Assembly (NCBI GenBank): GCA_025782575.1
Contig: JALGYY010000025.1
Span: forward strand, 124,001 to 188,000
DNA from: a bacterium
Lineage (GTDB): Bacteria; Orphanbacterota; Orphanbacteria; Orphanbacterales; Orphanbacteraceae
Reading direction: 5' to 3'
Length of the DNA stretch: 64,000 bases
Made by a program: the position numbers and the translations under genes. The notes under the pieces were generated by a model. The model did not search any database. It was given only the letters and a program-made list of their open reading frames with translations, and was not told the origin of the DNA. This document shows, one piece after another, positions 2,722 to 49,110 of the stretch (within the stretch, counting starts at the first letter, position 1; every line of letters begins with the position of its first letter).

Positions 2722-2725
2722 ATCA

Positions 2726-3262: not shown

Positions 3263-3422
3263 CGCTTTTCTCCTCTCACCGCCTCGTATCATGTAATACC
3301 TGACTCTCAATTTGATCGTGCCTGCCGCACTGGACGACTTCGCTTCCCCACGCTATGGTATCCGTGAGGTTCTCATTGTGATCAACGGGCTCGAGGGCCA
3401 CGAGATCCAGGAGGTGGGGGCC

Positions 3423-5708: not shown

Positions 5709-5741
5709 GAGAAATTCTTAGATAGGGATCCTGGGGCTGCT

Positions 5742-8393: not shown

Positions 8394-8401
8394 ACGGCGA
8401 G

Positions 8402-8410
8402 GTTATACCA
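8402..8410 (-). promoter_or_regulatory. Extended -10 promoter of the kinase gene
   Basis: On the minus strand the sequence reads TGGTATAAC, an extended -10 (TG-N-TATAAC). It ends 8 nt before the kinase ATG at 8393, which places transcription start at or within two bases of the start codon. No purine-rich ribosome-binding site exists in between. Confidence 0.5.
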
Positions 8411-8444
8411 TCTGACTTGATCGTGGGAGCAAAATCAACATCGC

Positions 8445-9437
8445 TTACTTCACAAACATGTCCCGAATCGACCGACCGATCAGACGAAATGGATAAATGT
8501 GCTGAGCAATCGGCATCCAGAGAAGACCGACCGTCTGACCATCATGCTCGAGGGGAAACTCGGGATCATCAATGCCTGTGTCAGGGTACTCGTCGTAACC
8601 TTCATACTGCGTCCCGAAAATCCGATCCCAGATGCTTAAGATGACGCCGTAGTTCAGGTCCCGGTGTTGCGGTTCGATCGAATGATGAATCCGATGGGAC
8701 TGGGGTGTAACAAAAACATATTGCAACGGGCCGAGGTTCGTTCGGATGCCGGCGTGATAAAAACGAGTGAACCAGAGACGAAAGATCGCGTACCAGAGTA
8801 TCTGAGGCATATCGACCGAAAGCATCAGAAGGGGAATGGTGCTGATCGATTTAGCGATGACATACTCCACTACATGATATCTCAGATCAGTAAATACGTT
8901 CATCTGGCGCTGAGAATGATGAACAGTATGGAAGTGCCAGAACCATTGAACTTTGTGTCTCACCAGATGATGGAACCAACTGAGGAAATCGGCCAGCAGC
9001 ATGCCCCATAGAAAACGGACAGGGCCGGGCAGCCTGCCGATTGAGTCGACGGTCAGATAGGCGAAGTGATCGAAGTAGACTTCGCGCAGGAATTGCACGT
9101 AGGTCACGATGACCACCGCATTCAATATCGTTTCCAGGAAAAACCAGATCGCATCGGTAACGAAACCGGTGCTGAGCAATTTCTGCTTCGGGTCAGCGGG
9201 AAAGATCCGCTCCAGAATGAGGATGCCCGCCATGAGCAAGTAGAAGAGCGGGCTCGTGAATGTCCGGCCGATCATCGCAACTAACGGCCAGTAGGTCATC
9301 CTCTTGATCCAGCGGGCGGCCTCGGATTGGTTCAGTGCGAATAGCGTATCGACACGGCCGAACAGAATGACCGCCGCCGCCAGTGCGCCTGCGATCATCA
9401 CGCAAGCCAGGACTATCCAGGCACGGGTCCGGCTCAT
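8445..9437 (-). CDS. Fatty acid hydroxylase / sterol desaturase superfamily membrane protein
   Basis: 330 aa integral membrane protein with several hydrophobic segments (first at about residues 7-27, others near 50-75 and 95-120). The di-iron histidine motifs of the superfamily are complete: H-H-L-V-R-H, H-F-H-T-V-H-H and, later, H-R-I-H-H, with additional His residues (FTRFYHAG, PQHRD). The family uses O2 and reductant to hydroxylate or desaturate lipids, sterols or carotenoids in the membrane. The gene stands alone between kinase and lipoprotein genes, so the substrate cannot be read from context. No clear Shine-Dalgarno precedes the start. Confidence 0.9.
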   Translation of the reverse strand: MSRTRAWIVLACVMIAGALAAAVILFGRVDTLFALNQSEAARWIKRMTYWPLVAMIGRTFTSPLFYLLMAGILILERIFPADPKQKLLSTGFVTDAIWFFLETILNAVVIVTYVQFLREVYFDHFAYLTVDSIGRLPGPVRFLWGMLLADFLSWFHHLVRHKVQWFWHFHTVHHSQRQMNVFTDLRYHVVEYVIAKSISTIPLLMLSVDMPQILWYAIFRLWFTRFYHAGIRTNLGPLQYVFVTPQSHRIHHSIEPQHRDLNYGVILSIWDRIFGTQYEGYDEYPDTGIDDPEFPLEHDGQTVGLLWMPIAQHIYPFRLIGRSIRDMFVK

Positions 9438-9544
9438 GAGAAGGGATTCTGCATGCGAAGAAAAGCAAGTTGCAGTCCCGCGAAAAATCCCACCCAGACT
9501 CCTTTCCGTTTCCCGACTCCCATCGCAGGTCGTCAGACTCCGGT

Positions 9545-10810
9545 CTATTCCTCGATAAACGAGTTTACACTAAAATCCCCCCCATCAAACCGAAACGATA
9601 GCTCGTATGTGGCGCCTTCCGAATCGAATGCGTCCCGGAGTCGCATTGTAATTTCCGTTGCGTCCGGCAACTCGTTCCACAGGTTCGCAGGATTGTTGGA
9701 TGTCCCATGGGAAGAAGAGAGAATCTCCCATCGATGCACGCCGGCAATCACAGTGGCCGTGCGGGACCCGGACGGAAAGAGGCGAAATGTGATGGCCCGC
9801 ACAATCCCCAGTTCCTGCCCGAGCGTACACCCCTGATCTTCCAGGAAGCCCCAGAAAGTCTCCACCCAGTCATTGTTCGGCTGCATCGTCACGGTTGCCG
9901 GGAAATTGCAACCCGCCACGTTATCCGGTCTGCTTGCGCACGCTTCGCCGCACCAGACTTCCAGATTGTAATACCAACCATTCTCGGGCGTAGCAACGGG
10001 CGCGAGACACCCATCGGTCAACCCGAGAAAGCGAAAGCCGAGAGGCGGGATTTCGAGGTCGAACGCGAATGTGCCGTTCTCCGCAATAGCGAACGTGCCG
10101 GTCTCGAAATTCGGACCCGTAGCAAAGTCAATCCACTTCCCCTGCCCGGACGGAGGGCCGGCGATTCCTTGCACTGTAAATGAATTGAATTGTGTGATCC
10201 ATCGTGATCCGGTCTCTTGTTCGAACAGCGTGCCGACACCAACGAATTGGGTGACATCCAGATCAGCGATCAGAACCTCCACGTTGCCCGGGGTTCGTAA
10301 TGAGATTGACTCACGCCATGTGCATTCGTCCGGATTCGATGCCGGTCCTGCCGAATACGCACTGAAATGCATCGTCTGCCCCCAGACCCGGCCGTTCGAA
10401 GTATGAGAAAGTGGGATCTCTTCCCACTGGTCTGTGGATTCATTCAATGACCAGAGCGTGCCCGCCGATCCCGCAAGGGAATCAGCGATCGCGATCGAGA
10501 TTGTCACGGGCAGATCGAACTCGGCACCATCCGGGCCGAACTCGAATACGTCAGACCATCGGCCGTCCGGATCCGGATAGCCGGACCTTGCCATCTCTTC
10601 GACGGTAATCTCCACCTCACCGCTCGAAATTGCGCCGGCCGGAATGGCTACGGTTCCATCACCGGACTCGGTCGAAACCACGCCACCAGTCGTGCCGATG
10701 CCGTCGACGGGGGTTTCACCGTTTTCAGGCTCCGTGCCACCATCGTCGCCGCAAGAGAATGTGAAAATAGAACAGAGAACGAGCAGAGAAAGCGAGTGCC
10801 GGGGGGACAT
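9545..10810 (-). CDS. Lipoprotein with ZU5-like domain, unknown function
   Basis: The start at 10810 is preferred because AAGGAGG lies ideally upstream, although the frame is open to 10864. The 421-aa product has a lipoprotein signal peptide (SLSLLVLCSIFTFSC), so it should be lipid-anchored, followed by an acidic linker. The next section (about residues 35-130) looks like a ZU5-type domain: a run beginning VSTESGDGTVAIPAGA, then W-x-L-N-E-S, then P-L-S-H-T with a W-G-x-T-x-H-F-S-x-Y-S ending. The remaining about 270 residues contain several Cys (NPDECTW, TDGCLAP, WCGEACA, AGCNFP) and resemble no family I can name. A secreted or surface structural role is possible. Confidence 0.75.
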   Translation of the reverse strand: MSPRHSLSLLVLCSIFTFSCGDDGGTEPENGETPVDGIGTTGGVVSTESGDGTVAIPAGAISSGEVEITVEEMARSGYPDPDGRWSDVFEFGPDGAEFDLPVTISIAIADSLAGSAGTLWSLNESTDQWEEIPLSHTSNGRVWGQTMHFSAYSAGPASNPDECTWRESISLRTPGNVEVLIADLDVTQFVGVGTLFEQETGSRWITQFNSFTVQGIAGPPSGQGKWIDFATGPNFETGTFAIAENGTFAFDLEIPPLGFRFLGLTDGCLAPVATPENGWYYNLEVWCGEACASRPDNVAGCNFPATVTMQPNNDWVETFWGFLEDQGCTLGQELGIVRAITFRLFPSGSRTATVIAGVHRWEILSSSHGTSNNPANLWNELPDATEITMRLRDAFDSEGATYELSFRFDGGDFSVNSFIEE

Positions 10811-10976
10811 GCGGTTCCTCCTTCGGGTTTCCTGGGCTTTTGCCCCGATTATCGTGTGAATCAAACGTAGCTGCCTTTTCTCTAACTATCAAGTGTTTCC
10901 AGAGATCCTTGATCAGGGGGGATTCTCGTGTTAAACTTCTACGGTAGCGTTAGTTGCCTGTCACACCCGTTCTCCC

Positions 10977-13900
10977 GTGAAAGCAATCATCATGTGTTCG
11001 AGGGGCGCCGGCACCCATTTCCGGGGATTTCTATTATCGCTACTTTTTATCGGCATACCTGGCGCCGCTTTTGCCCAAACACCTCCTGATCCACCTGTGA
11101 TCATCGAACCGCCGGTCGACAGCCTCGTGCTTAACGCCGCCGACGTCCACCTCGAAACCAACCCCATGTCGGACTCTGACAGCGGGGACACCCACTTCTG
11201 CAGCGACTGGGAAATCTGGACCGTGAACCCGGTGGAGCGCGTCTGGGCTTCCCTCTGCATTACCGGCACAGAGACAGTCCACAATCATCTCGGGGACGGC
11301 ATTTTCGAGGGGTCACATGCCGGACGAACCGAGCTTTTTTACGACGAAACGTTCCGCCTTCGCGTGCGACACCAGGACAATACTGCTCTATGGGGCGGTT
11401 GGTCGGAGCGGATCTTCCTGACCGGCCCCGAGGCCCAGATCTTCCCGCTCGAGTTCGAAGACGTCGCATCCACTCCCACACCTGTATGGCAGCACAACCA
11501 GGGCTCGAGCGTCATTCTCCCCGGCTTTCCGAATCCCGGCTTTCTTGATCTCGATCATCCGGTTGGTGGGCTGTTGCTTCGTGTCGAAGGATTCGATGGT
11601 TCATCGAACATGATTACGAACCCGGCCTCCCTCGGTGTTCACTGGCCGGTACGGGTAGTCATTTCAGGCGGTGGGGCAGGCATGGCGCTGACCAAGTCGG
11701 GTCTTGCGCTCACAGACGACGATGGCGCCGACCAAATTATCTATCTCCCCCCCCTCAATCTGGCGGCAAACGACACAGCCTACATGTGGGTCGGAATCGA
11801 TGGTTCTACCTACTGGGGGAACGGCGGACAGACCGAGCCGGACTTCTCCGATCTTGCCCGGGGCGCGGCGGTTCCGTGGATCGTGCTCCAGCCCGGATAC
11901 GAAATCGAGATTGTGGCGACCGGTTTTCAATTGCCTGTGAATATCGCTTTCGTGCCGAGCCCGGGATTGGACCCCGGCGACCCTCTCTATTATGTGACTG
12001 AACTCTACGGCAGCATCAAAGTGGTAACCAATGACGGCACGGTGAGTGATTACGCCACGAACCTGTTGAATTTCAACCCCACCGGCGCTTTCCCCGGCTC
12101 CGGCGAACAGGGCGTGGCCGGTATCGTCGTCGAACCGGCAACAGGCGATGTCTATGCAAGCATGGTATATGACGGCGGAAGCAATCAGCACTATGCCAAG
12201 GTCGATCGATTCACCAGCAATGATGGCGGCCTTACAGCGGCGACGCAAACCACGATCCTGGATATGGCGGGCGAACTGGTCGGCGCATCCCATCAGATAT
12301 CGAACCTTTCTATCGGTCCCGACAACATGCTCTACATCAATAATGCAGACGGTGGAAATTTTTCGACCGCCCTCGACACGACACAGTGGCGGGGTAAGAT
12401 CCTGCGCTCTACCATCGGCGGTGCGGCGCCTGCGGACAACCCGTTCTACGGCACTGGAAATGGCATCACCGCAACTGACTTCATCTATGCGTATGGCTTC
12501 CGAAACCCCTTCGGTGGGAGGTGGCGCGAATCGGACGGCTTTTTCTATGAAATCGAAAACGGTCCCTCCCAGAATGACAGGCTTGCGAAAGTCATTCCCG
12601 GAGCGAGCTACGGTTGGGACGGGACGGGCGCAAGCATGCTCACCGGCGCATCTTACGTCTGGACCACGCCCCATGGCGTGGTGAACATGGCGTTTATTCA
12701 GAACAGCGAATTTAACGGCAGCGAGTTCCCGGCGTCGAAAATCGATCACTGCTATGTGACCGAATCCGACGGAACGTGGTCCACCGGGCCGCAGACACTC
12801 GGAAAGCGAGTGGTTGAATTCGAGCTTGCAGGCGACGGAAGCGTTGTGGCCGGGCCGACAACTCTTGTGGAGTACACCGGTTCCGGCAAAGCGACTGCTG
12901 TCGGACTCGCCTCTGGGCCGGACGGCCTTTACTTTACCGATCTCTACAAAGACCAGGACTATCTGACACCTATCGATCCCGGTGCCAACGTGCTTCGCAT
13001 TAAGTACGTCGGCATCGCCGATTTCGTCGCGGATGCAACATCCGGAGAGGCGCCGCTCCCGGTTCAATTCACCGATCTCTCCGACATTTCATCCCCATCA
13101 GCGTGGAACTGGGAGTTCGGAGACGGAAACATCAGCACGGCGCAGAACCCGATGCATACCTACACTACGGACGGCACCTACAATGTAAGGCTCACCGTGA
13201 CCGGTTCCAAAGGCGTCATAACAAGCCAGAAGAATGGCTATGTCATCGTGGGCGATATCGGCTCGGGGCTCACCGCCGCTTACTATGACGAGATGGATTT
13301 CACTGATCTGAAACTCACTCGAATCGACTCCGAAGTCAATTTTCAGTGGCTACTCGAACCCCCCGATCCATCGATGGCCGTTGATTCCTTTTCGGTACAA
13401 TGGACCGGCCAGGTAAAAGCAGGTTTCACGGAAACGTATACGTTTTACACGCAGACGGACGACGGTGTCCGGCTATGGGTGAACAGCGAGCTCCTGATTG
13501 ATGAATGGCAGCCTCAGGGCTCCACGGAATTTTCGGCGACGATCGATCTGGTAGCCGACCGGAAATATGACATCCGGATGGATTTCTTCGATCAATGGGC
13601 GGACGCTTTGGCGGAGCTTTATTGGTCAAGTCCGAGTGTCGCGAAACAGATTATTCCCCAGGCTCGGTTGTTTCCGGCCCAGTCGATCACCGCGGGAGGA
13701 TTGCAAGGGGCTTACTTCGACGAGATCAACCTGGCAGGTATCAAGCTCAATCGTATCGACCCGGTTGTCGACTTCGACTGGACATCGGGAAGCCCTGACC
13801 CACTGATCGCTGCCGATTCGTTCTCCATTCGATGGACAGGTCAAGTCCTTGCCGATCACTCCGAGATCTACACGTTTTACACGACCACCGACGACGGCGT

Positions 13901-14544: not shown

Positions 14545-15441
14545 GTGCTACCCAACTTCCTCGTAATAGGCGCCGGGCGATCGGGTACGACGTCGCTGCA
14601 TTACTATCTGGATCAACATCCGGATGTGTTCGTCCCCCGAGTGAAGTCACCGAGCCACTTCTATTGCCGGGGGCTTCGCCCCTCGGACGATCCCAGGATC
14701 CGCCTGGTTACCCGTAACTTCTTTGTTCCTGACCCGGCCGACTACGAGGCACTTTTCGACGGCGCAAAGGGCAGGAAAGCGATAGGAGAAGTGTCGCCCG
14801 TCTATCTTGCTTCGCTCAACGTAGCACCCCGAATCGCGGCACGACTCCCCGGTGTCCGCCTGATCGCGATTCTTCGAAACCCGGTCGACCGTGTACACGC
14901 TCGATTCGTCGCCCGTCTCCGGGACGGCCTCGAGAGACGACCCGATCTCGCCCAGGTCATTCGCGATGATCTGAAGCAGCCTCTGATCAGGGAGGATGGC
15001 TCAGGTACTTATCTGGCGGCGGGGTTTTGCAGCCACATTCTTCAATCCTATTTCGACCGTTTTGACCGTGATATGATACGCGTTCATCTGTTCGATGATT
15101 TTCGGACGGATCCGGCGGGCGTGATGGCCGACATTTTCGGCTTTTTACAGGTCGACCCCTCGTTCGCCCTCGATACGAGAGCGCGGCACAACGCGAGCGG
15201 GGGGCTGATACGCAATCCGTTACTGCGCGAGATCTGGACACGATCAGCGCTCCTTCGCGCCCGGGCGCAGCCGTATCTACCGGGTAGGTTCCGCCGGACG
15301 GTCTCTTCGGCAATCAAGCGGGATCTCGTCGCCGAACCGCTCGAACGAAAACTGCGGCAGGAGCTGATCGACATCTATCGAGAAGAGGTCGAGAGGCTCC
15401 AGGACATGTTGAACCGCGATCTTTCGCACTGGCTCTCGTAA
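14545..15441 (+). CDS. Sulfotransferase (PAPS-dependent), copy 1
   Basis: 298 aa, GTG start with a GGAGA element upstream. The 5'-phosphosulfate-binding loop is GAGRSGTTSLHYYL (residues about 9-22) and the 3'-phosphate-binding segment is ILRNPVDRVHARF (about 112-124). These identify the Sulfotransfer_1/3 fold, which transfers sulfate from PAPS to a hydroxyl or amine of a glycan, lipid or other small molecule in the cytoplasm. It is clearly paralogous to the gene at 16972-17895: both share GEVSPVYL, an AILR-N/D-PVDR block, RRRDGLE-like residues and a final Q/E-D-LS-W. It starts the block that contains a P450, glycosyltransferases and flippases, so the acceptor is probably a cell-surface glycan or glycolipid. 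Confidence 0.92.
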   Translation: MLPNFLVIGAGRSGTTSLHYYLDQHPDVFVPRVKSPSHFYCRGLRPSDDPRIRLVTRNFFVPDPADYEALFDGAKGRKAIGEVSPVYLASLNVAPRIAARLPGVRLIAILRNPVDRVHARFVARLRDGLERRPDLAQVIRDDLKQPLIREDGSGTYLAAGFCSHILQSYFDRFDRDMIRVHLFDDFRTDPAGVMADIFGFLQVDPSFALDTRARHNASGGLIRNPLLREIWTRSALLRARAQPYLPGRFRRTVSSAIKRDLVAEPLERKLRQELIDIYREEVERLQDMLNRDLSHWLS

Positions 15442-15550
15442 CGCCGGAGACACGACGCTGGAATTACCGATTCAAATCGTCGAAGTTTCCCTGCTCGGCT
15501 GGGTTTCATGGCCATGGGCAAAGCTGATCGCGAACGGACGGCTCCGCCGA

Positions 15551-17026
15551 ATGTTCCCGCACGTATTCTTTGCTCTCCTGTCTGTTGAACTCTTCTGTAT
15601 CGCCTCAGCAATCTTGTTCGCTCTCTTCCTCCCGGTCGGCTTCCATCTACTGACTCTGGCGGCCGCTGTCTATCTCACTGTGGCCGCCTGGAGAAACCAT
15701 GACGCCTCTCCCGGATCGGCCGGCCTCCCTCCCGGATCCCTCTCGATTGCCCGATCGATAGCAGCGCTGCCCGACCGGCGTTACTATCAGGAACAGACCA
15801 GACGCCACGGCCCCGTCTTCAAGATGGCACAGTTTCATAGGCGAGTGATCTGTGTCACCGGCATCGAACGAAGCCACAAGCTCTTTCGGGATCATGCTTC
15901 TTCCATCGGACCTTGTCCGCTTCCGTTTTCCAGCGAAATTTCCGGCGGATTCCTTCGCTATATGAATGATGAAACGTACGAGCGCTACGGTCCTGCGTTT
16001 CGGAGAGCGCTCTCCGGTCCGATTGCCTTGTCGGCCGTTAACACGACACGATCGACAACGAAGCGGCAGCTGACTCTGATGGCAACCGACTGCGGCAAAT
16101 CGTCGGAAGGTCGAGGAGTACGCCCCGCTGCTTACGTCGCCGAAATCGTTCACGATGCGCTTGCCGCCGCCCTCTTCGGGAGTACCCCCGACTCGGATTC
16201 CTACAATGAGATGAAGACGCTCTTTTCCGTCATGGATGAGCAGGATCTGAATCGCCGTCTGAGCAGGAATACGAAGTCAGCACTCGCCGATCTTCGCTCG
16301 CTGGTAGAGAAGGAAGTCGAACGACTGCAGAGCCGCTCCGATCATGGAGAGCCGGCATGCGCCCTGACCGAGCTCCACCGAACCGACCCGCAGATGCCGG
16401 ACGCCGTCTGTATTGACAACCTCATCTTCATTTTCAAGTTCTCAACAGCCAATGTGCCGGGCCTTCTTCACTGGATCCTGCAGTTGCTCGGTGAGAATCC
16501 GGATTGGATCGGCAGGATTCGACAGGAGCGAAAAGAAGCAACGGACTCACGGAAAAACGATATTGTGAACCGCGTCATAATGGAAACATTGCGGCTCGCA
16601 CAGAGCGAGTACCTGTATCGAACCATCAAGAGCGATTTTGAATTCGAGGGATTTCGATTCCCCAGGGGATGGTTGATCCGGCACTGCGTATGGGAAAGCC
16701 ATCGCGACCCCCGGATCTTCGAGAATGCCGAGCGATTTGACCCGGACCGTCACCTTCTGGAGGATTTTCCCAGGCAGGAATACTCCCCTTTCGGTTGCCC
16801 CCACCATGGCTGCAACGGAGTGGTTCTCACCTATATGATCGCCCGGACATTTATCGAGGAACTAGCGGGATACGACTGGATAGCGTCCGGCGATTCCAAG
16901 CCCGAACGGGATTTCCGGCATTGGAGTCATTGGAGGCCGGGGGCAGGCTTCGGGGTGATTCTTCGGCCTGTTCAGTCTGAGTCGGCCGAGTCGGCTGAAT
17001 CGCCCCGCCATGCCGAGAGATCCTGA
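15551..17026 (+). CDS. Membrane-anchored cytochrome P450 with atypical I-helix
   Basis: 491 aa from the ATG. N-terminal hydrophobic helices (about residues 8-50) imply membrane anchoring. The ExxR motif of the K helix is present (E345-T-L-R348) and the haem-ligand loop is FGCPHHGC (F414 to Cys421), where the usual Gly four residues before Cys is Pro. The I-helix segment, about residue 300 (FKFSTANVPGLLHW), lacks the usual A/G-G-x-D/E-T acid-Thr pair for O2 activation, so chemistry may be unusual. Between the upstream stop (15441) and this ATG, the frame stays open from a CTG at 15458 that sits 7 nt after GGAGA, adding 31 residues; that start looks better than the ATG, which has no Shine-Dalgarno. 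The 3' end overlaps the convergent sulfotransferase by 55 nt. Probably oxidises the lipid or aglycone of the sulfated product. Confidence 0.85.
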   Translation: MFPHVFFALLSVELFCIASAILFALFLPVGFHLLTLAAAVYLTVAAWRNHDASPGSAGLPPGSLSIARSIAALPDRRYYQEQTRRHGPVFKMAQFHRRVICVTGIERSHKLFRDHASSIGPCPLPFSSEISGGFLRYMNDETYERYGPAFRRALSGPIALSAVNTTRSTTKRQLTLMATDCGKSSEGRGVRPAAYVAEIVHDALAAALFGSTPDSDSYNEMKTLFSVMDEQDLNRRLSRNTKSALADLRSLVEKEVERLQSRSDHGEPACALTELHRTDPQMPDAVCIDNLIFIFKFSTANVPGLLHWILQLLGENPDWIGRIRQERKEATDSRKNDIVNRVIMETLRLAQSEYLYRTIKSDFEFEGFRFPRGWLIRHCVWESHRDPRIFENAERFDPDRHLLEDFPRQEYSPFGCPHHGCNGVVLTYMIARTFIEELAGYDWIASGDSKPERDFRHWSHWRPGAGFGVILRPVQSESAESAESPRHAERS

Positions 17027-17895
17027 CCGATGAGCTCCTCCAGTTGCAGAACGTCCTCACGAAAGAGGTCGACCAGCCGGGCGCGGAGCGTCGGGTCGAG
17101 TTCCGGCCTTGCCAGCTTCACAGCACGCAGCGGATGAACCGAATCCCGCACGAACTCCGGCCAGTAGGGCCGCATCCACGTCCGGATCGGTGCTGTTCCC
17201 GTCCACAAAAATCGAAGAGCCCGGTTTTCGATCACACCGGTCTGATTGTGCCTGTATGACATGGCGGTCTTGAAGCTCCCATCGACGCCGAGAAATCCGT
17301 AAAGCTCCGCCATCAGGCCTCGTGAGTCCCTTCTGAAATTATCGAACAGAAATATCTTGATCCGCTCCCGCGGAAAGAGATCGTAGTAACCCTTTAGAAA
17401 GTGGTAATAGCGGCCACATCCAAGATAGCTCCCGAACGCGACATCATCGGGAAGTGGTTCAGAGAGCTCCCTGGTCACAACCGTCCCGAAATCAGTTCGC
17501 TCTTCCAGACCATCACGTCGGCGGCCCATGAAATGGGCATAGGCGCGATCGACCGGATCACGCAGAATGGCGACCAGCCTCGCTTCGGGACAGACCTCTC
17601 GAATGGCGCCGGGTGCACTCGTCGCCTGCAGATAGACAGGGGAGACTTCCCCGAGCACTTTTTCATCCCCCACCCCGTCGAATAACTTCTCGTACTCCGC
17701 TCTGTTTGAGATCCACTGCCTGGCCATCGCCCGAAGCCTCGGCCCCTCTCGATCCGGTTGCCTCTCGTGGGAGACGAAGTAGTTGGGCGATTTTCTTGGT
17801 GACATGTAGATTTGCGGATGTTGCTTCAAGTAGCTATGAATCGAGGTCGTGCCGCATCGACCGGCACCGATTACCAGAAAGTCGGGGAGAGCCAT
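16972..17895 (-). CDS. Sulfotransferase (PAPS-dependent), copy 2
   Basis: 307 aa, paralogue of the 14545 gene in opposite orientation on the other side of the P450. PAPS motifs: GAGRCGTTSIHSYL (residues about 9-22) and ILRDPVDRAYAHF (about 122-134). The YRHNQTG segment near residue 225 corresponds to the acceptor-side loop, HNASGG, of copy 1. The C terminus ends in a short DSADSADSD repeat encoded by the overlap with the P450. No Shine-Dalgarno precedes the ATG, and TGATACAGT lies 6 nt before it, so the mRNA may be leaderless. Two divergent sulfotransferases suggest two sulfation positions on one product or two related products. Confidence 0.92.
   Translation of the reverse strand: MALPDFLVIGAGRCGTTSIHSYLKQHPQIYMSPRKSPNYFVSHERQPDREGPRLRAMARQWISNRAEYEKLFDGVGDEKVLGEVSPVYLQATSAPGAIREVCPEARLVAILRDPVDRAYAHFMGRRRDGLEERTDFGTVVTRELSEPLPDDVAFGSYLGCGRYYHFLKGYYDLFPRERIKIFLFDNFRRDSRGLMAELYGFLGVDGSFKTAMSYRHNQTGVIENRALRFLWTGTAPIRTWMRPYWPEFVRDSVHPLRAVKLARPELDPTLRARLVDLFREDVLQLEELIGQDLSAWRGDSADSADSD
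16979..17005. repeat. Three 9-bp direct repeats in the overlapping 3' ends of P450 and sulfotransferase
   Basis: GAGTCGGCC, GAGTCGGCT and GAATCGCCC lie head to tail. They encode E-S-A-E-S-A-E-S-P near the P450 C terminus on the plus strand and S-A-D-S-A-D-S-D at the sulfotransferase C terminus on the minus strand. The repeat probably arose by slippage and extended both reading frames at once. Confidence 0.7.
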
Positions 17896-17901
17896 GACGC
17901 C

Positions 17902-17910
17902 ACTGTATCA
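17902..17910 (-). promoter_or_regulatory. Extended -10 promoter of sulfotransferase copy 2
   Basis: The minus strand reads TGATACAGT (TG-N-TACAGT). The hexamer ends 6 nt before the ATG at 17895, placing the transcription start at the start codon. Confidence 0.4.
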
Positions 17911-17936
17911 AACCGGGGTGGCAATGCGAACCTCCA

Positions 17937-17945
17937 TGCTATCAT
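17937..17945 (+). promoter_or_regulatory. Extended -10 promoter of the glycosyltransferase pair
   Basis: TGCTATCAT (TG-N-TATCAT) ends 9 nt before the ATG at 17955. It lies back to back with the opposite promoter at 17902-17910, making a compact divergent control region of under 60 bp. GAGG at 17946-17949 could be a Shine-Dalgarno if transcription starts further upstream. Confidence 0.35.
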
Positions 17946-17954
17946 GAGGCCCTC

Positions 17955-19013
17955 ATGATCACGCTGAATGTCATCTATACTCCTGGCACTCCCGGTCGGC
18001 TCCTCCCCTTCACGCTGTCACTCCTCCAGGGATCCGGCGTCAGGATACGGATCGTCGAGAACGGGTGTCCGCCGGAAGAGTCGCGACTGCTCCGTGCGGC
18101 GGCCGAGGTCGACGATCGAATTACCTATTATTCGCTCGGCGTCCCCGGTCCGGTCGAACATGGCCTCGCACTCAATCATCTGTTTGAGCGCTTCACTGAA
18201 CCCTGTTTCGGGATGGTCGACTCTGACATGATTGCGAGCGGTGACTACATGTCCGGAATCCCCTCTCTGTTTCCAGGCAAGGCCGCGGTATTCAGCGGTT
18301 CACCCGTATGGGCGGCCGACAATGATATGGTCGTCAGGAAAAGCTGTACCTGGATTGGCGCCCGCCATCGAATATTGACGGACGGCACGAGCGTCGGGAA
18401 CTCCTACTTCGCCATCTATGACCGTGCCTTGCTCGAACCCGCCTGGCGGGCAGCCCCTCGAGGCTTCGGTACACACGACCGATACCAACTATCTCGAAGC
18501 GTGCAGAAAGCTTTCGCCGAACGGGGGTGGCGATACGTCATGTTCGATACCGCTCGCGTACTGAATCTGCAACTCATCCTCGACGGCCACGCGCTCGAGC
18601 ATCTGATCCTGCCCACCCTGCATCATGTCGGAGGTTTCAGTGCGGAGAACTTTGCCCGGCGGAAAGATGATCTGGCTGCTCTGGCCGGTGCGACATTTCG
18701 GATCCTCCGATCGGACGACGGCCGACGGGTGCAGCGCTTCGTCGACGGCGCCCGCCATCGACTGTTTCTTACCCGTAGCCGGCGCGACCCGCGTCACGTC
18801 CGAATGAACGCCCACCGGCGGCTCGTCATCTCCCACATCCGCGAGGTTGTCGACGCGATCAGGTCCGGCGAGACCCCACCTGAGACTCCGATTACCGGCC
18901 TCCCCGATGTCGACAGCCATGTTGCCGCGCTCGTAGGCGCCATTGAAGATCGATATCCCATTGGTCTTGCGGCATCTGCCCGCACAAGCGCCCAGGTGTC
19001 CAGCCAGCGATGA
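17955..19013 (+). CDS. GT-A-fold glycosyltransferase-like protein, tandem copy 1
   Basis: 352 aa cytoplasmic protein with the layout of a GT-A glycosyltransferase: an N-terminal strand (ITLNVIYTPG), an E-N-G-C-P-P-E-E segment where the nucleotide-binding D/E would be, then CFGMVDSDMIASGDY (about residues 87-101) with a D-S-D metal-binding motif. It matches the next gene closely along most of its length, including the N-terminal YT-G-T, the H-G-x-AL-HL-ER segment and H-H-x-G-G-x-S near residue 220. I cannot assign donor or acceptor. The stop overlaps the next start by four bases (ATGA), so the two are translationally coupled. Confidence 0.75.
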   Translation: MITLNVIYTPGTPGRLLPFTLSLLQGSGVRIRIVENGCPPEESRLLRAAAEVDDRITYYSLGVPGPVEHGLALNHLFERFTEPCFGMVDSDMIASGDYMSGIPSLFPGKAAVFSGSPVWAADNDMVVRKSCTWIGARHRILTDGTSVGNSYFAIYDRALLEPAWRAAPRGFGTHDRYQLSRSVQKAFAERGWRYVMFDTARVLNLQLILDGHALEHLILPTLHHVGGFSAENFARRKDDLAALAGATFRILRSDDGRRVQRFVDGARHRLFLTRSRRDPRHVRMNAHRRLVISHIREVVDAIRSGETPPETPITGLPDVDSHVAALVGAIEDRYPIGLAASARTSAQVSSQR

Positions 19014-20038
19014 CCACATTTCATATCGTTTATACTGCGGGAACCATCGCTTCTCTTCTCCCATTCGCTTTCTCGCTGCTTCGCTCCCCCGCTGCCCGCT
19101 TTCTTCTCGTCGACAATGGATGTGGCCCGGATGAGTCGCAGTGTCTGCGATCCGTGGCGGACTCGGAGCCGAGATTCTCATACTATCGACTTCCCTTTCC
19201 CGATGTAGCGCCCCACGGCACCGCCCTCGATCACCTGCTCGAACGGTGCACCGAACGGTTCTTTGCCATTCTCGACTCCGATATTATGGCGACCGGCGAT
19301 TTTCTCTCCGAGCTCGCGGACCGTCCCACCCGCTTCGGCGCAATCTGTTCCGCCTGGCCGATCTGGATCGAGGACGGTGAATCGGTATGCGCGGCATCGC
19401 AGACATTCGTCGGCGGTCCGTACCGTCAGTTGTCTGACGGCACCGAAGTGGGGGGCACCGGTTGTGCGATCTACGATCGAACGGCTCTGGAAGACGCTCT
19501 TGGCCAGGTCCGAGCCGGGCTGTCGAATCAGACTTCCCACGCGCTCGGAGATGAGTTACGCCTCTCCTTCCAAAAGCGCGGCTGGAACTGCATCCGATTC
19601 GGTACGGCGCGGGTCGCCCATCTCCAGCTCGTGCTGCAGGGAAATCCCATCATCAACCGGCATTCCGATCACCTTCACCACATCGGCGGAGTGAGCCACA
19701 CTTCAGATGTCGCGCCCACGAGCCTCCCCTCCAAACTTCGTCGCGTCGCTTCGCTGTTTCTTCGGGGCGACAGGTCACCCGCGTCGAATCTCGTTTCCAA
19801 TGTCAACCGACGATTCAGCGAGAGCGGACGGAAACAGGCAAGCACCTACCTGCGTAAACGAAAGGTGGTCCTCCACGCCGAGGCTGCGATGGATGCATTG
19901 CGCTGCGGAGATCCCCCACCGACGACTCCCCCGACCGGATCTCCCGAAGTCAATGGGCGTCTCGCGCTCTTCCTCGAGTCTCTCGTGCGAGATTATCCGG
20001 ATCAGTGCGAGCGGCTGAGTTCGGTCACCCGCACATGA
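19010..20038 (+). CDS. GT-A-fold glycosyltransferase-like protein, tandem copy 2
   Basis: 342 aa paralogue of the preceding gene, sharing the N-terminal fold (TTFHIVYTAGT), the V-D-N-G-C-G-P-D-E segment, H-G-T-A-L-D-H-L-L-E-R and the D-S-D motif (FFAILDSDIMATGDF, about residues 83-97). The ATGA overlap with copy 1 and a 41-nt gap to the flippase gene indicate one transcript. Divergence between copies is substantial, so they probably act at different steps on the same glycan rather than being redundant. Confidence 0.75.
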   Translation: MTTFHIVYTAGTIASLLPFAFSLLRSPAARFLLVDNGCGPDESQCLRSVADSEPRFSYYRLPFPDVAPHGTALDHLLERCTERFFAILDSDIMATGDFLSELADRPTRFGAICSAWPIWIEDGESVCAASQTFVGGPYRQLSDGTEVGGTGCAIYDRTALEDALGQVRAGLSNQTSHALGDELRLSFQKRGWNCIRFGTARVAHLQLVLQGNPIINRHSDHLHHIGGVSHTSDVAPTSLPSKLRRVASLFLRGDRSPASNLVSNVNRRFSESGRKQASTYLRKRKVVLHAEAAMDALRCGDPPPTTPPTGSPEVNGRLALFLESLVRDYPDQCERLSSVTRT

Positions 20039-20079
20039 TGGCCCGTCCCTCGATCCCTTGCTACGAAAGCTGGTGAGAT

Positions 20080-21594
20080 ATGCGGCCTGGTGACAGCCAT
20101 TTCCGCACGTTTGACCTTCAGGAAGATCTCATCGGACGATCTGTGCGGGGAGGTACGGTTACGTTCATCGCACATGGACTCCGCTTTTTCCTGAACATCG
20201 GCTCAACAGTCATACTCGCGCGCATTCTCACACCACTGGATTTCGGCGTGATCGCCATGGTAGCCGCTGCCACAGGGTTTCTTACCATCCTGCGCGATCT
20301 GGGACTTGGCACCGTAACCGTACAGAGTGAGGTGATCGACCAGACTCAGGTGAGCACTCTCTTCTGGTTGAACATGATCTCAGGCACTGCCCTGGCGGTT
20401 ATTATCTCTCTCGCCTCCCCCGCAATCGCGGCATTTTTCAACGAACCTAAACTGACTCCTGTCGGGATCGCCTTTGGTCTTCTGGCTATCATCGGATCGC
20501 TCGGAACACAGCATAGCGGTCTTCTTCGCCGACGCATGCGTTTCGGTGCTCTCGCCACTGTGGAGGTCAGCTCGCTCGCCGCCGGTTCGATCACAGGAGT
20601 GATAATGGCGATACTGGGTATGGAGTATTGGTCTCTCGTCGGCATGCGCGTCGCCTCTGAATCGACTCGCATCGGTTGCCTCTGGCTTTTCTGCGACTGG
20701 CGCCCCGATCGCTCGTTCGACTTTCGCGGGGTTCGCTCCAAACTGGCGTTCGGCGGCTTCATCACGCTCTCCCAGTTCCTGCGTTATGTGACACACCACG
20801 TGGACCGCCTTCTCATCGGCCGCGTCTTCGGCCCCGAATCTCTCGGGCTCTACGGACGAGCGCGGGGTTGGCTCGTCTCTCCCGCCCACCTGATCTCCGT
20901 TCCGATGTCAGGCGTCGCCATTCCTGTCCTGAGCCGTCTCCGCGGAGAGCCGGAGCGATTTCGTTCCTGGTTTCGAGCGGGCCAGGGCATCCTTGCCACT
21001 CTTGCCGTTCCTGCAGCCGCATTCCTGTTCGCCGACACGAGAACGGTCGTGCTGCTCATCCTTGGTGACCAGTGGATTGCGGCGATCCCGATATTCCGGC
21101 TTCTCGCCCCGGTCTCCATCGTCGCGATCGCACGCATCGGTTTTCACTGGTGCTACATCTCTCTGGGGCGGGCGGATCGTCAGCTGCGATGGGAGCTCGT
21201 AATGATGATCGCGACGATCATCGCGTTCCTGACAGGCATGCGATGGGGCGTGAACGGGGTGGCGGCCGCCTGGTCCGTCGTGAGCCTGCTTCTTGCCGTG
21301 CCGGGGGCGCTCTATTGCTTTCGCGGATCGCCTGTCGAATTCAGCGATCTCGCTACGGCATTCGCCGCTCCCCTCGCTGGTGCGATTCCCGGGGCGATTG
21401 CGGTTCGTCTCTTCTCAGCCTGGAGACCGATCGAAAGCACCCCGATCGCGATCGCAATCCACGCCACTCTTTTTCTCTCCGTCTATCTGGTGATCTGGAT
21501 CGGATTGCCGGGGGGACGGGAACGGGCCAGACTCTTTATCGGTCTCGCTCGCCGGGTCCGGCAACCTCGAACAACCGAAGGACGAGATAGGTGA
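20080..21594 (+). CDS. MOP-superfamily polysaccharide/lipid-linked oligosaccharide flippase, copy 1
   Basis: 504 aa, about a dozen hydrophobic helices. The first 60 residues (IGRSVRGGTVTFIAHGLRF, then ILARILTPLDFGVIAM) are the classic start of the lipopolysaccharide flippase (WzxC/RfbX-like) family, with DLGLGTV in the following loop. Such proteins move undecaprenyl-linked or other lipid-linked glycans from the inner to the outer leaflet of the cytoplasmic membrane. It follows the two glycosyltransferase-like genes and overlaps the sulfotransferase-glycosyltransferase fusion by four bases, so it probably exports the product of these enzymes. Confidence 0.9.
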   Translation: MRPGDSHFRTFDLQEDLIGRSVRGGTVTFIAHGLRFFLNIGSTVILARILTPLDFGVIAMVAAATGFLTILRDLGLGTVTVQSEVIDQTQVSTLFWLNMISGTALAVIISLASPAIAAFFNEPKLTPVGIAFGLLAIIGSLGTQHSGLLRRRMRFGALATVEVSSLAAGSITGVIMAILGMEYWSLVGMRVASESTRIGCLWLFCDWRPDRSFDFRGVRSKLAFGGFITLSQFLRYVTHHVDRLLIGRVFGPESLGLYGRARGWLVSPAHLISVPMSGVAIPVLSRLRGEPERFRSWFRAGQGILATLAVPAAAFLFADTRTVVLLILGDQWIAAIPIFRLLAPVSIVAIARIGFHWCYISLGRADRQLRWELVMMIATIIAFLTGMRWGVNGVAAAWSVVSLLLAVPGALYCFRGSPVEFSDLATAFAAPLAGAIPGAIAVRLFSAWRPIESTPIAIAIHATLFLSVYLVIWIGLPGGRERARLFIGLARRVRQPRTTEGRDR

Positions 21595-23219
21595 GCGGTC
21601 AGACTCCCCCCATTATTGTCACAGGCATGCACCGGTCGGGGACATCACTCGTGTCGAACCTACTGGGAGACGCCGGCGTCGACATGGGACCGGGGAAACG
21701 AACCGGAAAGAAGTACTTTGAAGATCATGCGTTCGTCGACCTCCACCGGAAAATGCTGGATGTCTGTCTTCCCCGCGAAGTCCCGGGCATGGCCGACTGG
21801 GGATGGACGGAAGGCGGATCATTCGACAACACGGGGGCGACGAGGTTTGTGGATCAGGCCCGTGCCCTTACACGGAAGAGGGAGCGGGGACGGGGTGAAC
21901 ATTGGGGGTGGAAGGATCCTCGGACCACCCTCTTTCTGGAGTTCTGGGATGAGCTTATCCCCGATGCCCGCTATCTTCTGCTCTATCGATTCCCGTGGGA
22001 AGTGGCCGATTCCATGCAGCGCCTCGGAGCCGATGTCTTTCTCGATAACCCTGAATACGCTCACTCGATCTGGAGATTCTACAACGAACGAATTCTGGCG
22101 TTCGCGAACCGGCACAGCGATCGCTGCCTCCTGGTCAGCGTGAACGGCCTGCGCCATCGGTTCGAAGAATTTCGTGTACTGGTCGAGCAGAAACTGGGAA
22201 TCACTCTCGCTGGCTCCCTTCCAGACCGCGCGACCGGCCGGGATTCCTTCTTCTCCCCTCCTGAACGAGATCCCCTGGTCGAACTCGTCGCGGAAGCGTC
22301 TCCCGAGTCGATTCGGATTCTACGCCAACTGGATCATGCTGCCGACCTTCCCGCCACGGGATTGTGGCACGACGGGACTCCGCGCCCGCTCCGACTGGTT
22401 CATCGCCCGGAAAAAGCCGGCGACGTGATCACATCGATCGTAATCGCCTGCTTCAATCATGGCGAGTTCCTGCTGGAAGCGGTAGCGAGCGCGGAGCGGA
22501 GCGTCCCCGCGGAAACGACCGAGCTGATCATCGTCAACGACGGCTCCGATCAGCCGCGCACTCTCGAGGTTCTGGCCGCTCTCCGCAGGTCAGGCTATCG
22601 AATCATCGATCAGGAACAAGGTGGATTATCGCGGGCGCGTAACAACGGCATTGAAGCCGCCACCGGCCGCTACATCCTTCCGCTGGATGCCGACAACCGA
22701 TTGCTCTCCGGATATGTACAGAAAGGTAATCACATCCTGGATCGATCCCCCGAGATCGGTATTGTCTACGGGAGCCGCAGGAACTTCGGGATGCGCGATC
22801 AGGTCGTCCACCCTCCTCTTCCCCGCTTTCCTGAGATCTGCTATCACAATCGGGTCGATGCGTGCGCCCTCTTCCGTCGGCAGGTCTGGATCGATTGCGC
22901 CGGCTACGACGAGAGCCTGGAAACATTGGAAGACTGGGAGCTCTGGCTCCACGCACTTGTATTGGGCTGGCGTTTTCATCATCTACAGGAGGTGCTGTTC
23001 GAATATCGTGTCCGGCCGAATTCCAAAGTCAGAGCTACCGCGAAAGCCGGGGGCTCACGTGCGACCATCCGCTATGTACATGCCAAGCATGCAGAGGCAC
23101 TGAAACCCTACCTCGCCGCCGGAACAGAAGGACCTCTCGCCCCCTTCCATCGTCTGATCCGCCGCTTGCGACGGGAGTGGATCCGGCGAACCCACCGGAG
23201 CAGGGGCGTCCGCTCGTAG
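21591..23219 (+). CDS. Bifunctional sulfotransferase-glycosyltransferase fusion
   Basis: 542 aa, GTG start overlapping the flippase stop. The N-terminal half (about 1-270) is a sulfotransferase: P-loop TGMHRSGTSLVSNLL (residues about 7-21), HWGWKDPRT and a YRFPWEVADSM segment in place of the 3'-phosphate site. The C-terminal half (about 278-505) is a family 2 glycosyltransferase: SIVIACFNHGEFL, IIVNDGSD, a GGLSRARNNGI helix, LDADN as DxD-like motif, and TLEDWELWLHAL carrying the catalytic ED-W. One polypeptide thus could add a sugar and a sulfate. Fused genes of this kind occur sporadically in surface-polysaccharide loci; which acceptor is used is unknown. Confidence 0.88.
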   Translation: MSGQTPPIIVTGMHRSGTSLVSNLLGDAGVDMGPGKRTGKKYFEDHAFVDLHRKMLDVCLPREVPGMADWGWTEGGSFDNTGATRFVDQARALTRKRERGRGEHWGWKDPRTTLFLEFWDELIPDARYLLLYRFPWEVADSMQRLGADVFLDNPEYAHSIWRFYNERILAFANRHSDRCLLVSVNGLRHRFEEFRVLVEQKLGITLAGSLPDRATGRDSFFSPPERDPLVELVAEASPESIRILRQLDHAADLPATGLWHDGTPRPLRLVHRPEKAGDVITSIVIACFNHGEFLLEAVASAERSVPAETTELIIVNDGSDQPRTLEVLAALRRSGYRIIDQEQGGLSRARNNGIEAATGRYILPLDADNRLLSGYVQKGNHILDRSPEIGIVYGSRRNFGMRDQVVHPPLPRFPEICYHNRVDACALFRRQVWIDCAGYDESLETLEDWELWLHALVLGWRFHHLQEVLFEYRVRPNSKVRATAKAGGSRATIRYVHAKHAEALKPYLAAGTEGPLAPFHRLIRRLRREWIRRTHRSRGVRS

Positions 23220-23333
23220 GAGGCGGACAGGAATCCGTCGACGGCTCCAAATCAGGGTGATACACTGTCAAACTCGTTTGAACCGAGTATCAGTGAACGT
23301 GCAAATGACACGCATGTCAGAGGTTTTGACTCC

Positions 23334-24248
23334 ATGAAACTGAGCGAGTTGGTTGTTAGGGGCGCCCGGCGTCTCCGAACCGACAACCTGGGTGTTTTTC
23401 TTAAAAGGGCGTGGAAGGTCTTCGGGCTGGAGTCCGCCGGCAGAAGCCGCGACATGCGTTACAACGCGATCCGCCGATCGGCCAAGGACGGTCTTATCGT
23501 CGCCGATATCGAGGGGAGCAGGATGTTCCTGAACGTGGCGGACGAAGGCATCTCCAAACAACTGGCGCTCGACAAGATCCGTGAGCCGGAAGCCACAAAG
23601 ATGATCTGGGATTCCCTGGTCAGTGGAGAAGTGGTCGTCGATATCGGCGCCAACATCGGTTACTTCGCGCTGATCGAATCACAGATCGTCGGCGAATCCG
23701 GATGTGTGTACGCCATCGAACCGGTACCGGGTAACGTCGAACTCCTTCGCCGCAACATAGACGCGAACAACTACACCAATATCGAGCTCTTCCAGATGGG
23801 AATCAGTGAGAAGGCCGGTAAGGTCGAAATGTTCATCTCGAAAAAGTGCAACTGGAGTTCCATGATTTTCGATGAAGACAACGAGGTTGTCGACCGAATC
23901 GAAGTAGACGTGGTCACGCTCGACGAATTTCTCGTGGGAAAGAAGGACCCTACCTTTATCCGCATGGATGTAGAGGGCTTTGAGTACGAAATATTGAACG
24001 GAATGGACAAGACCCTGGGAAAATATCCGAATCTGAAGTTCTTTATCGAAATCCACGCCCACCTGATGGGCCGGGAGAAGACGATCGAATTCCTGGAGAG
24101 GTTCAAACAGAAGGGTTACGAGACTACCGGTGTTTTTCATCCGGAGCTCGATTTCAGTTATAAGACGATCGACGAGCTCATCACCCACGAACAGTTTCTA
24201 TCCGGGGAAATCTACGCTCTGCACGTCTTCCTGCAAAAGAAGTCCTGA
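23334..24248 (+). CDS. FkbM-family SAM-dependent methyltransferase
   Basis: 304 aa. The SAM-binding motif I is VVVDIGANIGYFAL (about residues 101-114), followed by YAIEPVPGNVELLRRNI (motif II acid) and, further on, IRMDVEGFEYEILNGM, all diagnostic of the FkbM family, which O-methylates sugars and polyketides. It ends 12 nt from the convergent second flippase and lies about 110 nt after the fusion gene. It is likely to methylate the glycan built by this locus. The Shine-Dalgarno is weak; a TGATACACT extended -10 (about 23259-23267) and a TCAAAC/GTTTGA dyad (23268-23281) precede it and may drive it separately. Lys/Glu-rich composition differs somewhat from its Arg-rich neighbours. Confidence 0.88.
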   Translation: MKLSELVVRGARRLRTDNLGVFLKRAWKVFGLESAGRSRDMRYNAIRRSAKDGLIVADIEGSRMFLNVADEGISKQLALDKIREPEATKMIWDSLVSGEVVVDIGANIGYFALIESQIVGESGCVYAIEPVPGNVELLRRNIDANNYTNIELFQMGISEKAGKVEMFISKKCNWSSMIFDEDNEVVDRIEVDVVTLDEFLVGKKDPTFIRMDVEGFEYEILNGMDKTLGKYPNLKFFIEIHAHLMGREKTIEFLERFKQKGYETTGVFHPELDFSYKTIDELITHEQFLSGEIYALHVFLQKKS

Positions 24249-24260
24249 TTTCCGCCCCAG

Positions 24261-25835
24261 CTACCTGAGTCCGATCAATCCCAGAATCTTCCGTCCCATG
24301 GGAAAGCGATCTCCTATCTTCCCGACGATTTCCCGGTCATAGTCGTCGATCAGATCGAGCTTCACAATGGCGGCATAGCAGAGAAGAACGAACGGGATGA
24401 TGATCAGGGGCTGCCAATATAGCCCCGCTTGCCGCGCGACAAAATAGGCGACAGCCATAATAAGTGTGTCCACCAGAGCGATCTTCAGGAATGACGCGTC
24501 GTAGATCTTCATTTTGATTTCTCGTTTGACGAAAACCAGTGCCAGAATATTTCGGAGAGAGAGGCTGAACGCCGTGGCGATCGCCGCGCCGAGAATTCCG
24601 TAGAGCTTGATAAGAACAATATTGAGAGCCACGTTCACCAGACTTCCGGTCAGGTCGGCGGCAAGAGTGAGTCTCGTCTTGCCGATACCGTTCAGGAGCA
24701 GTCCTTTCAGTCCCGTGGAACCGGTGACGAGGATCCCGATGGAGAGAAAGACGAGCACGACGGCACCGGAAACATATTCCTCGCCGTACAGAATGGTAAG
24801 GATTGTATCGGGAAAGGAGATGAACACCAGAAACACGGGAAAGCTGATCATGAAGATCCACTTGGTTACCGAAGCATAGAGCCGGCCGATCGCTTCAAAA
24901 TCTTTTTCAAGAAAGAGTGCCGATACTGCAGGCAGGAAGACGAAACCGAACGAGTAGAGTATGAAGTTCAGAAGCTGCGCGATGCTCATGGCCGAGAAGT
25001 AGTAGCCAACATCTTCCGCGGCGGCGAAGGCGCCCAGAATAAGCTGGGAGGACTGCGTCATGGCGAGGAGAATGAAGCTGCTCAGGGTGAGCGGCCACGA
25101 ATAGGTGAGAATCTCCCGGGCCACCGGGATACGGTCTCCTCTCCCCTTAAAGGGAACGATCGCTTTCCGGACCGTAACTACCAGGGCGAACAGGGCGGCG
25201 CAAGCCGACGAGATGGTCCACGCCGTAAGAGCCCCGGTGAGACGAAATCCGACCAGGAGAAGGATCAGGAACACAACTGTACGGGAAAGCCTGGCGACTA
25301 CTTCCTGTATGAGTACAGGGAGTCTGGATTCCTTCATTCCCCGCAGGATCGACACGAAAATGTACATGAGCGCCGTGAAGGGGATCGACAGAGCGAATAG
25401 TCTGAGTACCCGTTGAAGATCCGGCTTGCCAAGGACGTTGGCCGAGAACCAGGGGGCGGCCACGATCAGGAGCAGGCCGAACAGCACGCTTGAAATCAGG
25501 CCGAACAGGATACCGAAGGAAACGACGCTGATCAGTTTCCCGTAATCCTTCTCTTTCAGTGCCATCGACACGAATCGGGTGATTCCGTCCTGCAGGCCGA
25601 ACATGGAGATGATGACGAGGATCGTGGTGATGCTGAGGCCGAGATTGAAGAGGCCGTACTGCTCCGGACCGAGTATGCGAGCAAAGAGAACCTGGTTGAG
25701 GGTTCCCAGAACCTTCCCGATCATCAGACCGGCCAGAATCGTACCGCTCCCTTTGACCACGGAGGTCAGGGAACTCTGAGCGGCCGAACCGGTCGTCCTC
25801 TTGTCCGGCCCTACTTGACCCATTTCATCAGCCAT
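24261..25835 (-). CDS. MOP-superfamily polysaccharide flippase, copy 2
   Basis: 524 aa with about 12-14 membrane helices. The N-terminal region after a short hydrophilic tail (GSGTILAGLMIGKVLGTLNQ, then LFARILGPEQYGLFNLG) matches the polysaccharide biosynthesis (RfbX/MurJ-like) branch of the MOP family, distinct from copy 1. Its first codons overlap the end of the S9 peptidase gene by 25 nt (start at 25835) or 13 nt if the in-frame ATG at 25823 is used, so the two are co-translated. It probably exports a second lipid-linked glycan or partners copy 1. Confidence 0.9.
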   Translation of the reverse strand: MADEMGQVGPDKRTTGSAAQSSLTSVVKGSGTILAGLMIGKVLGTLNQVLFARILGPEQYGLFNLGLSITTILVIISMFGLQDGITRFVSMALKEKDYGKLISVVSFGILFGLISSVLFGLLLIVAAPWFSANVLGKPDLQRVLRLFALSIPFTALMYIFVSILRGMKESRLPVLIQEVVARLSRTVVFLILLLVGFRLTGALTAWTISSACAALFALVVTVRKAIVPFKGRGDRIPVAREILTYSWPLTLSSFILLAMTQSSQLILGAFAAAEDVGYYFSAMSIAQLLNFILYSFGFVFLPAVSALFLEKDFEAIGRLYASVTKWIFMISFPVFLVFISFPDTILTILYGEEYVSGAVVLVFLSIGILVTGSTGLKGLLLNGIGKTRLTLAADLTGSLVNVALNIVLIKLYGILGAAIATAFSLSLRNILALVFVKREIKMKIYDASFLKIALVDTLIMAVAYFVARQAGLYWQPLIIIPFVLLCYAAIVKLDLIDDYDREIVGKIGDRFPMGRKILGLIGLR

Positions 25836-48950: not shown

Positions 48951-49110
48951 GGAGTCACTCCTTCAACTCATTCTCGCATAAGAGGCTGAACAGGGTAAAG
49001 TTACATCGTGATGGGCGAGGCGGACGGCCTGGCGGGTCCCATTTCCTCGACCCTTTTGAGCTTTTTTGCGACCAAACGCCCTAGTAAGAGCGTCTCCATA
49101 ATAAGGGCCC

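Follow-up and report, generated by a model that had tools for sequence, protein, structure and literature searches.

Which molecule, if any, is jointly produced by the sulfotransferase, cytochrome P450, glycosyltransferase (GT) and flippase genes that lie side by side in the analysed stretch of 64,000 nucleotides (the window, part of a 202-kb contig in a 4.88-Mb MAG)? The original prediction had proposed that two paralogous sulfotransferases flanking a P450, two paralogous GT-like genes, a flippase, a sulfotransferase-GT fusion, an FkbM methyltransferase and a second flippase form one locus for a sulfated and methylated glycan or glycolipid. All open reading frames were found in place, and the Pfam assignments agree with the families proposed (Table 1). 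The paralogy was likewise confirmed for both pairs, with 44% identity between StfA and StfB and 35% between GT1 and GT2.

Table 1 Features of the sulfotransferase/P450/glycosyltransferase locus and its downstream neighbours (positions in the window).
Feature	Position	Strand	Remarks
StfA, PAPS-dependent sulfotransferase	14545..15441	+	298 aa; PF13469 E 7e-12
Cytochrome P450, N-terminal membrane hairpin	15458..17026	+	PF00067 E 5e-22
StfB, inverted sulfotransferase paralogue of StfA	16972..17895	-	PF13469 E 7e-14
StfB-GT1 divergent spacer, promoter-like	17896..17954	n/a	59/60/60 nt in three genomes
GT1, divergent GT-A type glycosyltransferase, DSD motif	17955..19013	+	Pfam sub-threshold, E 0.04
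GT2, paralogue of GT1	19010..20038	+	weak GT2-family, PF00535 E 3e-5
Wzx/MOP-family lipid-linked glycan flippase	20080..21594	+	PF13440 E 6e-76
Stf-GT fusion	21591..23219	+	N-terminal sulfotransferase PF13469, C-terminal GT2 PF00535
FkbM methyltransferase (PF05050) and second flippase (PF01943)	23334-25835		outside conserved unit

Whether the genes belong together was addressed by comparison with related genomes, the genome index listing the lineage as a phylum with seven genomes, all in one family. Two further loci (L006 and L007) carry StfA, P450, inverted StfB, GT1, GT2, Wzx and the Stf-GT fusion in an order and orientation identical to those of the window (14545-23219, about 8.7 kb), so that genes which might have been scattered in relatives are in fact linked there. 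The three carriers are MAGs from two genera, both relatives belonging to the phylum-level lineage of the source but to another genus; the labels of these two relatives are Candidatus Eisenbacteria (JAJCZU010000007.1) and Gemmatimonadetes (JABDJQ010000273.1). Protein identity between the window and the relatives is 57-70% (StfA 69-70%, P450 59-61%, Wzx 64-67%, Stf-GT fusion 60%), compared to 77-89% between L006 and L007. In the three-genome comparison, dN/dS ranges from 0.09 to 0.29 over all seven genes, the values between the relatives G001 and G002 (0.10-0.29) being more reliable, since synonymous sites are near saturation between the genera.

The arrangement is also conserved in its details. 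The distance from StfA to the first ATG of the P450 gene amounts to 109, 109 and 110 nt in the three genomes, the 4-nt overlap of GT1 and GT2 is common to all three loci, and the 3' ends of the P450 and StfB genes overlap in each of them (55 bp in the window, 95 bp in both orthologues). The StfB-GT1 spacer is 73-75% identical across genera vs 49% for shuffled sequence and is conserved like the adjacent coding DNA; it contains one weak sigma-70-like match (17918-17945), the total number of matches being no higher than expected by chance. The flanks of the three loci, on the other hand, share nothing. In G001, the cassette directly follows a block which encodes an MCC-beta carboxyltransferase, a sigma factor and an anti-sigma-like protein and which there also includes an HDOD gene, whereas in the window the block occupies 47343-50659, some 26 kb away, which indicates a local rearrangement. 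Since order, orientation and spacing were kept while the neighbourhoods changed, we conclude that the seven genes are, as judged from sequence conservation, one functional unit. A chance neighbourhood of surface genes without joint function, which might be considered as GT, sulfotransferase and flippase genes are common and often clustered, is contradicted by the conservation of the seven genes in order, orientation and spacing at 57-70% identity despite different flanks, and we give it practically no credence.

The same comparison sets the borders of the unit. Neither the FkbM methyltransferase gene nor the second flippase gene has a homologue in L006 or L007, and both were therefore rejected as members; the GSDH/PA14 protein encoded upstream and the peptidase encoded downstream are also without counterpart in the two loci. 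Because these flanking genes lack counterparts while the seven genes were kept together, we place the borders at 14545 and 23219. The proposed locus thus stands for its seven genes and has to be shortened by its last two, and the proposed product is retained as a sulfated glycan or glycolipid specified by a linked, conserved locus, without the methylation that depended on FkbM. As to signs of a genomic island, the window contains no tRNA and no Rfam match, and its GC content is even.

The P450 (profile search) and GT1/GT2 (alignment search) are present in the same three of 386 genomes, always together, and both are absent from the four other members of the phylum. As 379 of the 386 genomes lie outside the phylum, the cassette is restricted within this sample, and its carriers number only three, all MAGs. 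A scan of a genome collection of 84,980 species, limited to close relatives, recovered L006 and L007 again. Genes resembling StfA/B at other sites in the phylum reach 30-33% identity at best. The one such neighbourhood examined, in G005, encodes asparagine synthase and chaperonin, and neither a GT nor a flippase nor a P450 was recognised among the scanned proteins; we therefore dismissed these genes as scattered remnants of the cassette.

StfA carries the PAPS loop GAGRSGTTS, and the motif GAGRxGTTS as well as E82 are invariant in StfA and StfB. Profile searches matched both proteins to the sulfotransferase 3rnl (E 1e-62) and to the heparan sulfate enzymes NDST and 3-OST (E 1e-12 to 4e-5), and E82 aligns with the glutamate of the EKS/EKTP motif in NDST and 3-OST-3, as expected of NDST/3-OST-like enzymes. 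In NDST and 3-OST this glutamate is the catalytic base. At the level of sequence, StfA and StfB hence resemble glycan sulfotransferases of the heparan sulfate type. The fusion protein combines a sulfotransferase domain (PF13469, residues 7-175) with the PAPS-loop-like motif GMHRSGTS and a GT domain (PF00535, residues 282-410).

The sulfate donor could be provided from outside the cassette. The search for PAPS synthesis genes proposed at the outset was successful, as the genes for Sat (ATP sulfurylase) and APS kinase lie together elsewhere in the source genome (G000:C2). APS kinase is encoded in all seven genomes of the phylum, and PAPS is therefore predicted to be available without being specific to the cassette, which led us to discard a cassette-specific PAPS supply. 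Within this region (L015, G000:C2:961000-977000, positions 2314-11132), four genes of PF01663, the type I phosphodiesterase/nucleotide pyrophosphatase family, are interspersed among those for ATP sulfurylase and APS kinase, which is an odd arrangement for a PAPS locus.

Among the glycan-related proteins, GT1 retains an invariant DSD motif, and its model (moderate confidence, pLDDT 63) resembles GT-A folds, among them SpsA (E 7e-9), while Wzx matches models of MOP flippases. None of the seven genes encodes a priming glycosyltransferase, a polymerase, a ligase or an export protein, so that a pathway based on the cassette alone would be incomplete; proteins of the Wzy_C/ligase family are encoded elsewhere in all seven genomes.

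The P450 of the cassette is the only one in the source genome. Its translation probably begins with the CTG at 15458 (522 aa) and not with the first ATG (15551, 491 aa), 31 codons further downstream; this would require the use of CTG in two of the three genomes. The 109 nt between StfA and the ATG (15442-15550) are 83% conserved and in frame with the P450, a GGAG sequence precedes a CTG or TTG codon by 7-8 nt at the same site in all three genomes, and the N-terminus of a P450 relative in G001 is extended by a comparable length. We accordingly abandoned the idea that this gap is a regulatory element, as it reads as a conserved in-frame N-terminus. The N-terminus of the P450 contains two hydrophobic helices predicted to form a membrane hairpin.

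The haem ligand Cys421, E345 and R348 of the ExxR motif and the PERF-like R400 are invariant in an alignment of four sequences, which places the protein in the P450 superfamily. The I-helix is unusual, as had been predicted: it reads FSTANV, ISSANV and ISTANV in the three orthologues, without the acid-alcohol pair of the canonical AGxD/ETT, and it may resemble the SxAN pattern of CYP7/CYP8. The haem loop, FGCPHHGCNG in all three orthologues, has Pro in place of the conserved Gly, so that neither canonical monooxygenase motif, (A/G)Gx(D/E)T in the I-helix and FxxGxxxCxG in the haem loop, occurs in any of them. Canonical P450 controls from the same searches, which were open reading frames from plus-oriented control loci only, have AGHETT-like I-helices and canonical haem loops. 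In searches with a profile of the family, the orthologues scored above 900 bits and the G001 relative (30% identity), which was part of the profile, 755 bits, compared to at most 85 bits for all other P450s; outside the lineage, only ordinary family members were recovered, again with at most 85 bits. As the orthologues stand apart from all but this relative, we regard the P450 of the cassette as a separate family.

These replacements raise the question whether the protein is a monooxygenase at all. If it were an isomerase, a dehydratase or a peroxygenase (CYP74-, CYP8A1- or CYP152-like), all other steps remaining as in our main reading, the [FI]S[TS]ANV helix without D/E-T in three of three orthologues vs AGHETT-like helices in other P450s, the exchange of Gly for Pro in the haem loop and the finding that no redox partner gene adjoins the P450 gene would fit. 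However, loss of the acid-alcohol pair does not by itself exclude oxygen activation, as CYP7A1 and P450cin activate oxygen despite it, and the match to a CYP152-type family is at background level (19 bits vs a cut-off of 600), which is why we consider such a non-monooxygenase unlikely. Far less probable still is a non-catalytic, DesVIII/EryCII-like partner activating a glycosyltransferase. The location in a GT locus, the decay of motifs and a weak TIGR04515 match (20.7 bits) point in this direction, but this score compares with an NCBIfam cut-off of 343 and is no better than those of unrelated P450 families, and the haem Cys, ExxR and the PERF-like Arg are invariant, with a haem loop that is identical in three orthologues.

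By sequence and fold, the nearest P450s include CYP120, CYP46, CYP51 and CYP90, which are isoprenoid or sterol enzymes, and the nearest solved ones include CYP120A1, CYP46A1, CYP51 and plant terpenoid or sterol P450s. CYP120A1 (PDB 2ve3/2ve4) is both the best PDB match by sequence (91 bits, profile) and the best match by fold; the cassette P450 shares less than 20% identity with it and differs in its non-canonical I-helix and haem loop and its membrane hairpin. As the AlphaFold model is poor (pLDDT 58), the fold match supports superfamily membership only, and a structure-based reading of the substrate pocket was dropped for the same reason. Given the membrane anchor and the lipophilic substrates of many of the nearest solved relatives, a lipid is the most likely substrate. 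The P450 relative in G001 (L013, G001:C92, 6556-10279) is encoded in an apparent operon of overlapping genes, together with a DegT sugar aminotransferase and a flippase-like LPG_synthase_TM protein, and a GT4 gene is convergent to this operon; the haem loop of the relative, FGVDVHSCIG, has Asp in place of Gly. This single case is suggestive of a second link between a P450 and glycan or lipid translocation.

An oxidised lipid could also be sulfated directly. In M. tuberculosis, CYP128A1 and Stf3 (Rv2268c/Rv2267c) belong to a three-gene sulfomenaquinone operon for one sulfated quinone (PMC6469627), and the cassette can be likened to it by gene arrangement, as a P450 and a PAPS sulfotransferase are adjacent and co-conserved, with the proposed logic of hydroxylation followed by sulfation on a lipid. 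The P450 could hydroxylate a lipid of the membrane, for instance menaquinone or a polyprenyl chain, with StfA and StfB sulfating the new hydroxyl and the GTs and Wzx serving a separate step or product. The membrane anchor of a P450 placed between StfA and StfB, the operon-like layout (PMC6469627) and the divergent transcription of StfB from the GT half are in line with this. In contrast, StfA and StfB resemble glycan sulfotransferases, the P450 and sulfotransferase genes are accompanied by those for the GTs, Wzx and the Stf-GT fusion in each of the three genomes, GT1/GT2 strictly co-occur with the P450, and instead of three genes there are two sulfotransferases, a Stf-GT fusion, two further GTs and a flippase. 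Among the alternatives this one deserves the most attention, even though we regard it as rather improbable.

We favour, with a probability of about 0.6, that the cassette serves to assemble and translocate a glycolipid or lipid-linked oligosaccharide which is short and multiply sulfated and whose lipid is oxidised by the P450. Such a product fits the count of three GT domains, three sulfotransferase domains, one flippase and one membrane P450. The gene families, their conserved linkage and co-occurrence, the selection acting on them and the presence of PAPS genes are seen in the sequence; substrate, order of steps, numbers of sugars and sulfates and final location are, as far as we infer them, as follows. 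At the inner face of the cytoplasmic membrane, the membrane-anchored P450 would oxidise the lipid part; oxidation of a sugar in the lipid-linked intermediate is less likely. Up to three sugars would then be added by GT1, GT2 and the fusion's GT domain, and StfA, StfB and the sulfotransferase domain of the fusion would transfer sulfate from PAPS, supplied by Sat and APS kinase encoded outside the cassette, to up to three hydroxyls. Finally, Wzx would flip the product, which may later be ligated or polymerised by enzymes encoded elsewhere. It speaks against this reading that sulfotransferases of the StfA/B family also act on lipids and proteins, that no redox partner is encoded beside the P450, that the cassette lacks several enzymes of a complete pathway and that its carriers are just three MAGs.

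Loci for sulfated glycans with sulfotransferases, GTs and Wzx are already known (PMC8205485, PMC11641403). Like the cassette, the synechan (xss) locus of Synechocystis, which directs a Wzx/Wzy-type sulfated exopolysaccharide, unites PAPS-type sulfotransferases, several GTs and a Wzx flippase, and its GT and sulfotransferase gene numbers roughly fit the sugar:sulfate ratio (PMC8205485). It differs in encoding a polymerase, a co-polymerase and a priming GT; the cassette shows the linked Stf, GT and Wzx genes of a Wzx/Wzy-type locus but has no Wzy, priming GT or PCP/OPX within it, and has instead a P450, which the xss paper does not mention (PMC8205485), and a Stf-GT fusion. Clusters for sulfated glycopeptide antibiotics (TEG, aba) also bring together P450s, several sulfotransferases and GTs, but they are NRPS-based and their P450s cross-link a peptide (PMC11727664), whereas the cassette has no NRPS and has a glycan flippase. 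That a P450 can use a carbohydrate is known from porphyran degradation, where the enzyme acts on 6-O-methyl-galactose; it is catabolic, works with ferredoxin and reductase partners and lies outside glycan assembly (PMC10033563).

The combination of a P450 with sulfotransferases, which the original prediction had not recognised from elsewhere, is therefore already known from CYP128/Stf3 and the glycopeptide clusters; in open papers, the scope of our literature search, we found no description of a P450 within a Wzx-type glycan assembly locus, nor any counterpart in which this pairing is set in such a cassette and involves a P450 from so unusual a family. It is a tentative and at present doubtful extension of our reading that a P450 family confined to this lineage, non-canonical in its oxygen-activation and haem-loop residues, performs a committed step toward oxidised, multiply sulfated lipid-linked oligosaccharides of a new class, a step built into Wzx-type surface glycan assembly. 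If this were true, P450 oxidation would join the known repertoire of bacterial glycan assembly, an uncultured lineage would have a defined seven-gene set for a sulfated surface molecule, and a natural P450 family would become available that retains its haem ligand although both the acid-alcohol pair and the haem-loop Gly are replaced. The cassette is small enough for heterologous expression, which makes its chemistry directly testable.

Three other genes of the window deserve mention. About 5 kb upstream of the cassette, a membrane protein of the fatty acid hydroxylase/sterol desaturase family (PF04116) is encoded on the minus strand (8445-9437), a gene which was not found in the L006 and L007 stretches. 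A DUF438-hemerythrin-PAS protein is encoded at 39525-40763, and a multihaem cytochrome c at 59611-60888 matches MtrC/MtrF-like outer-membrane cytochromes.
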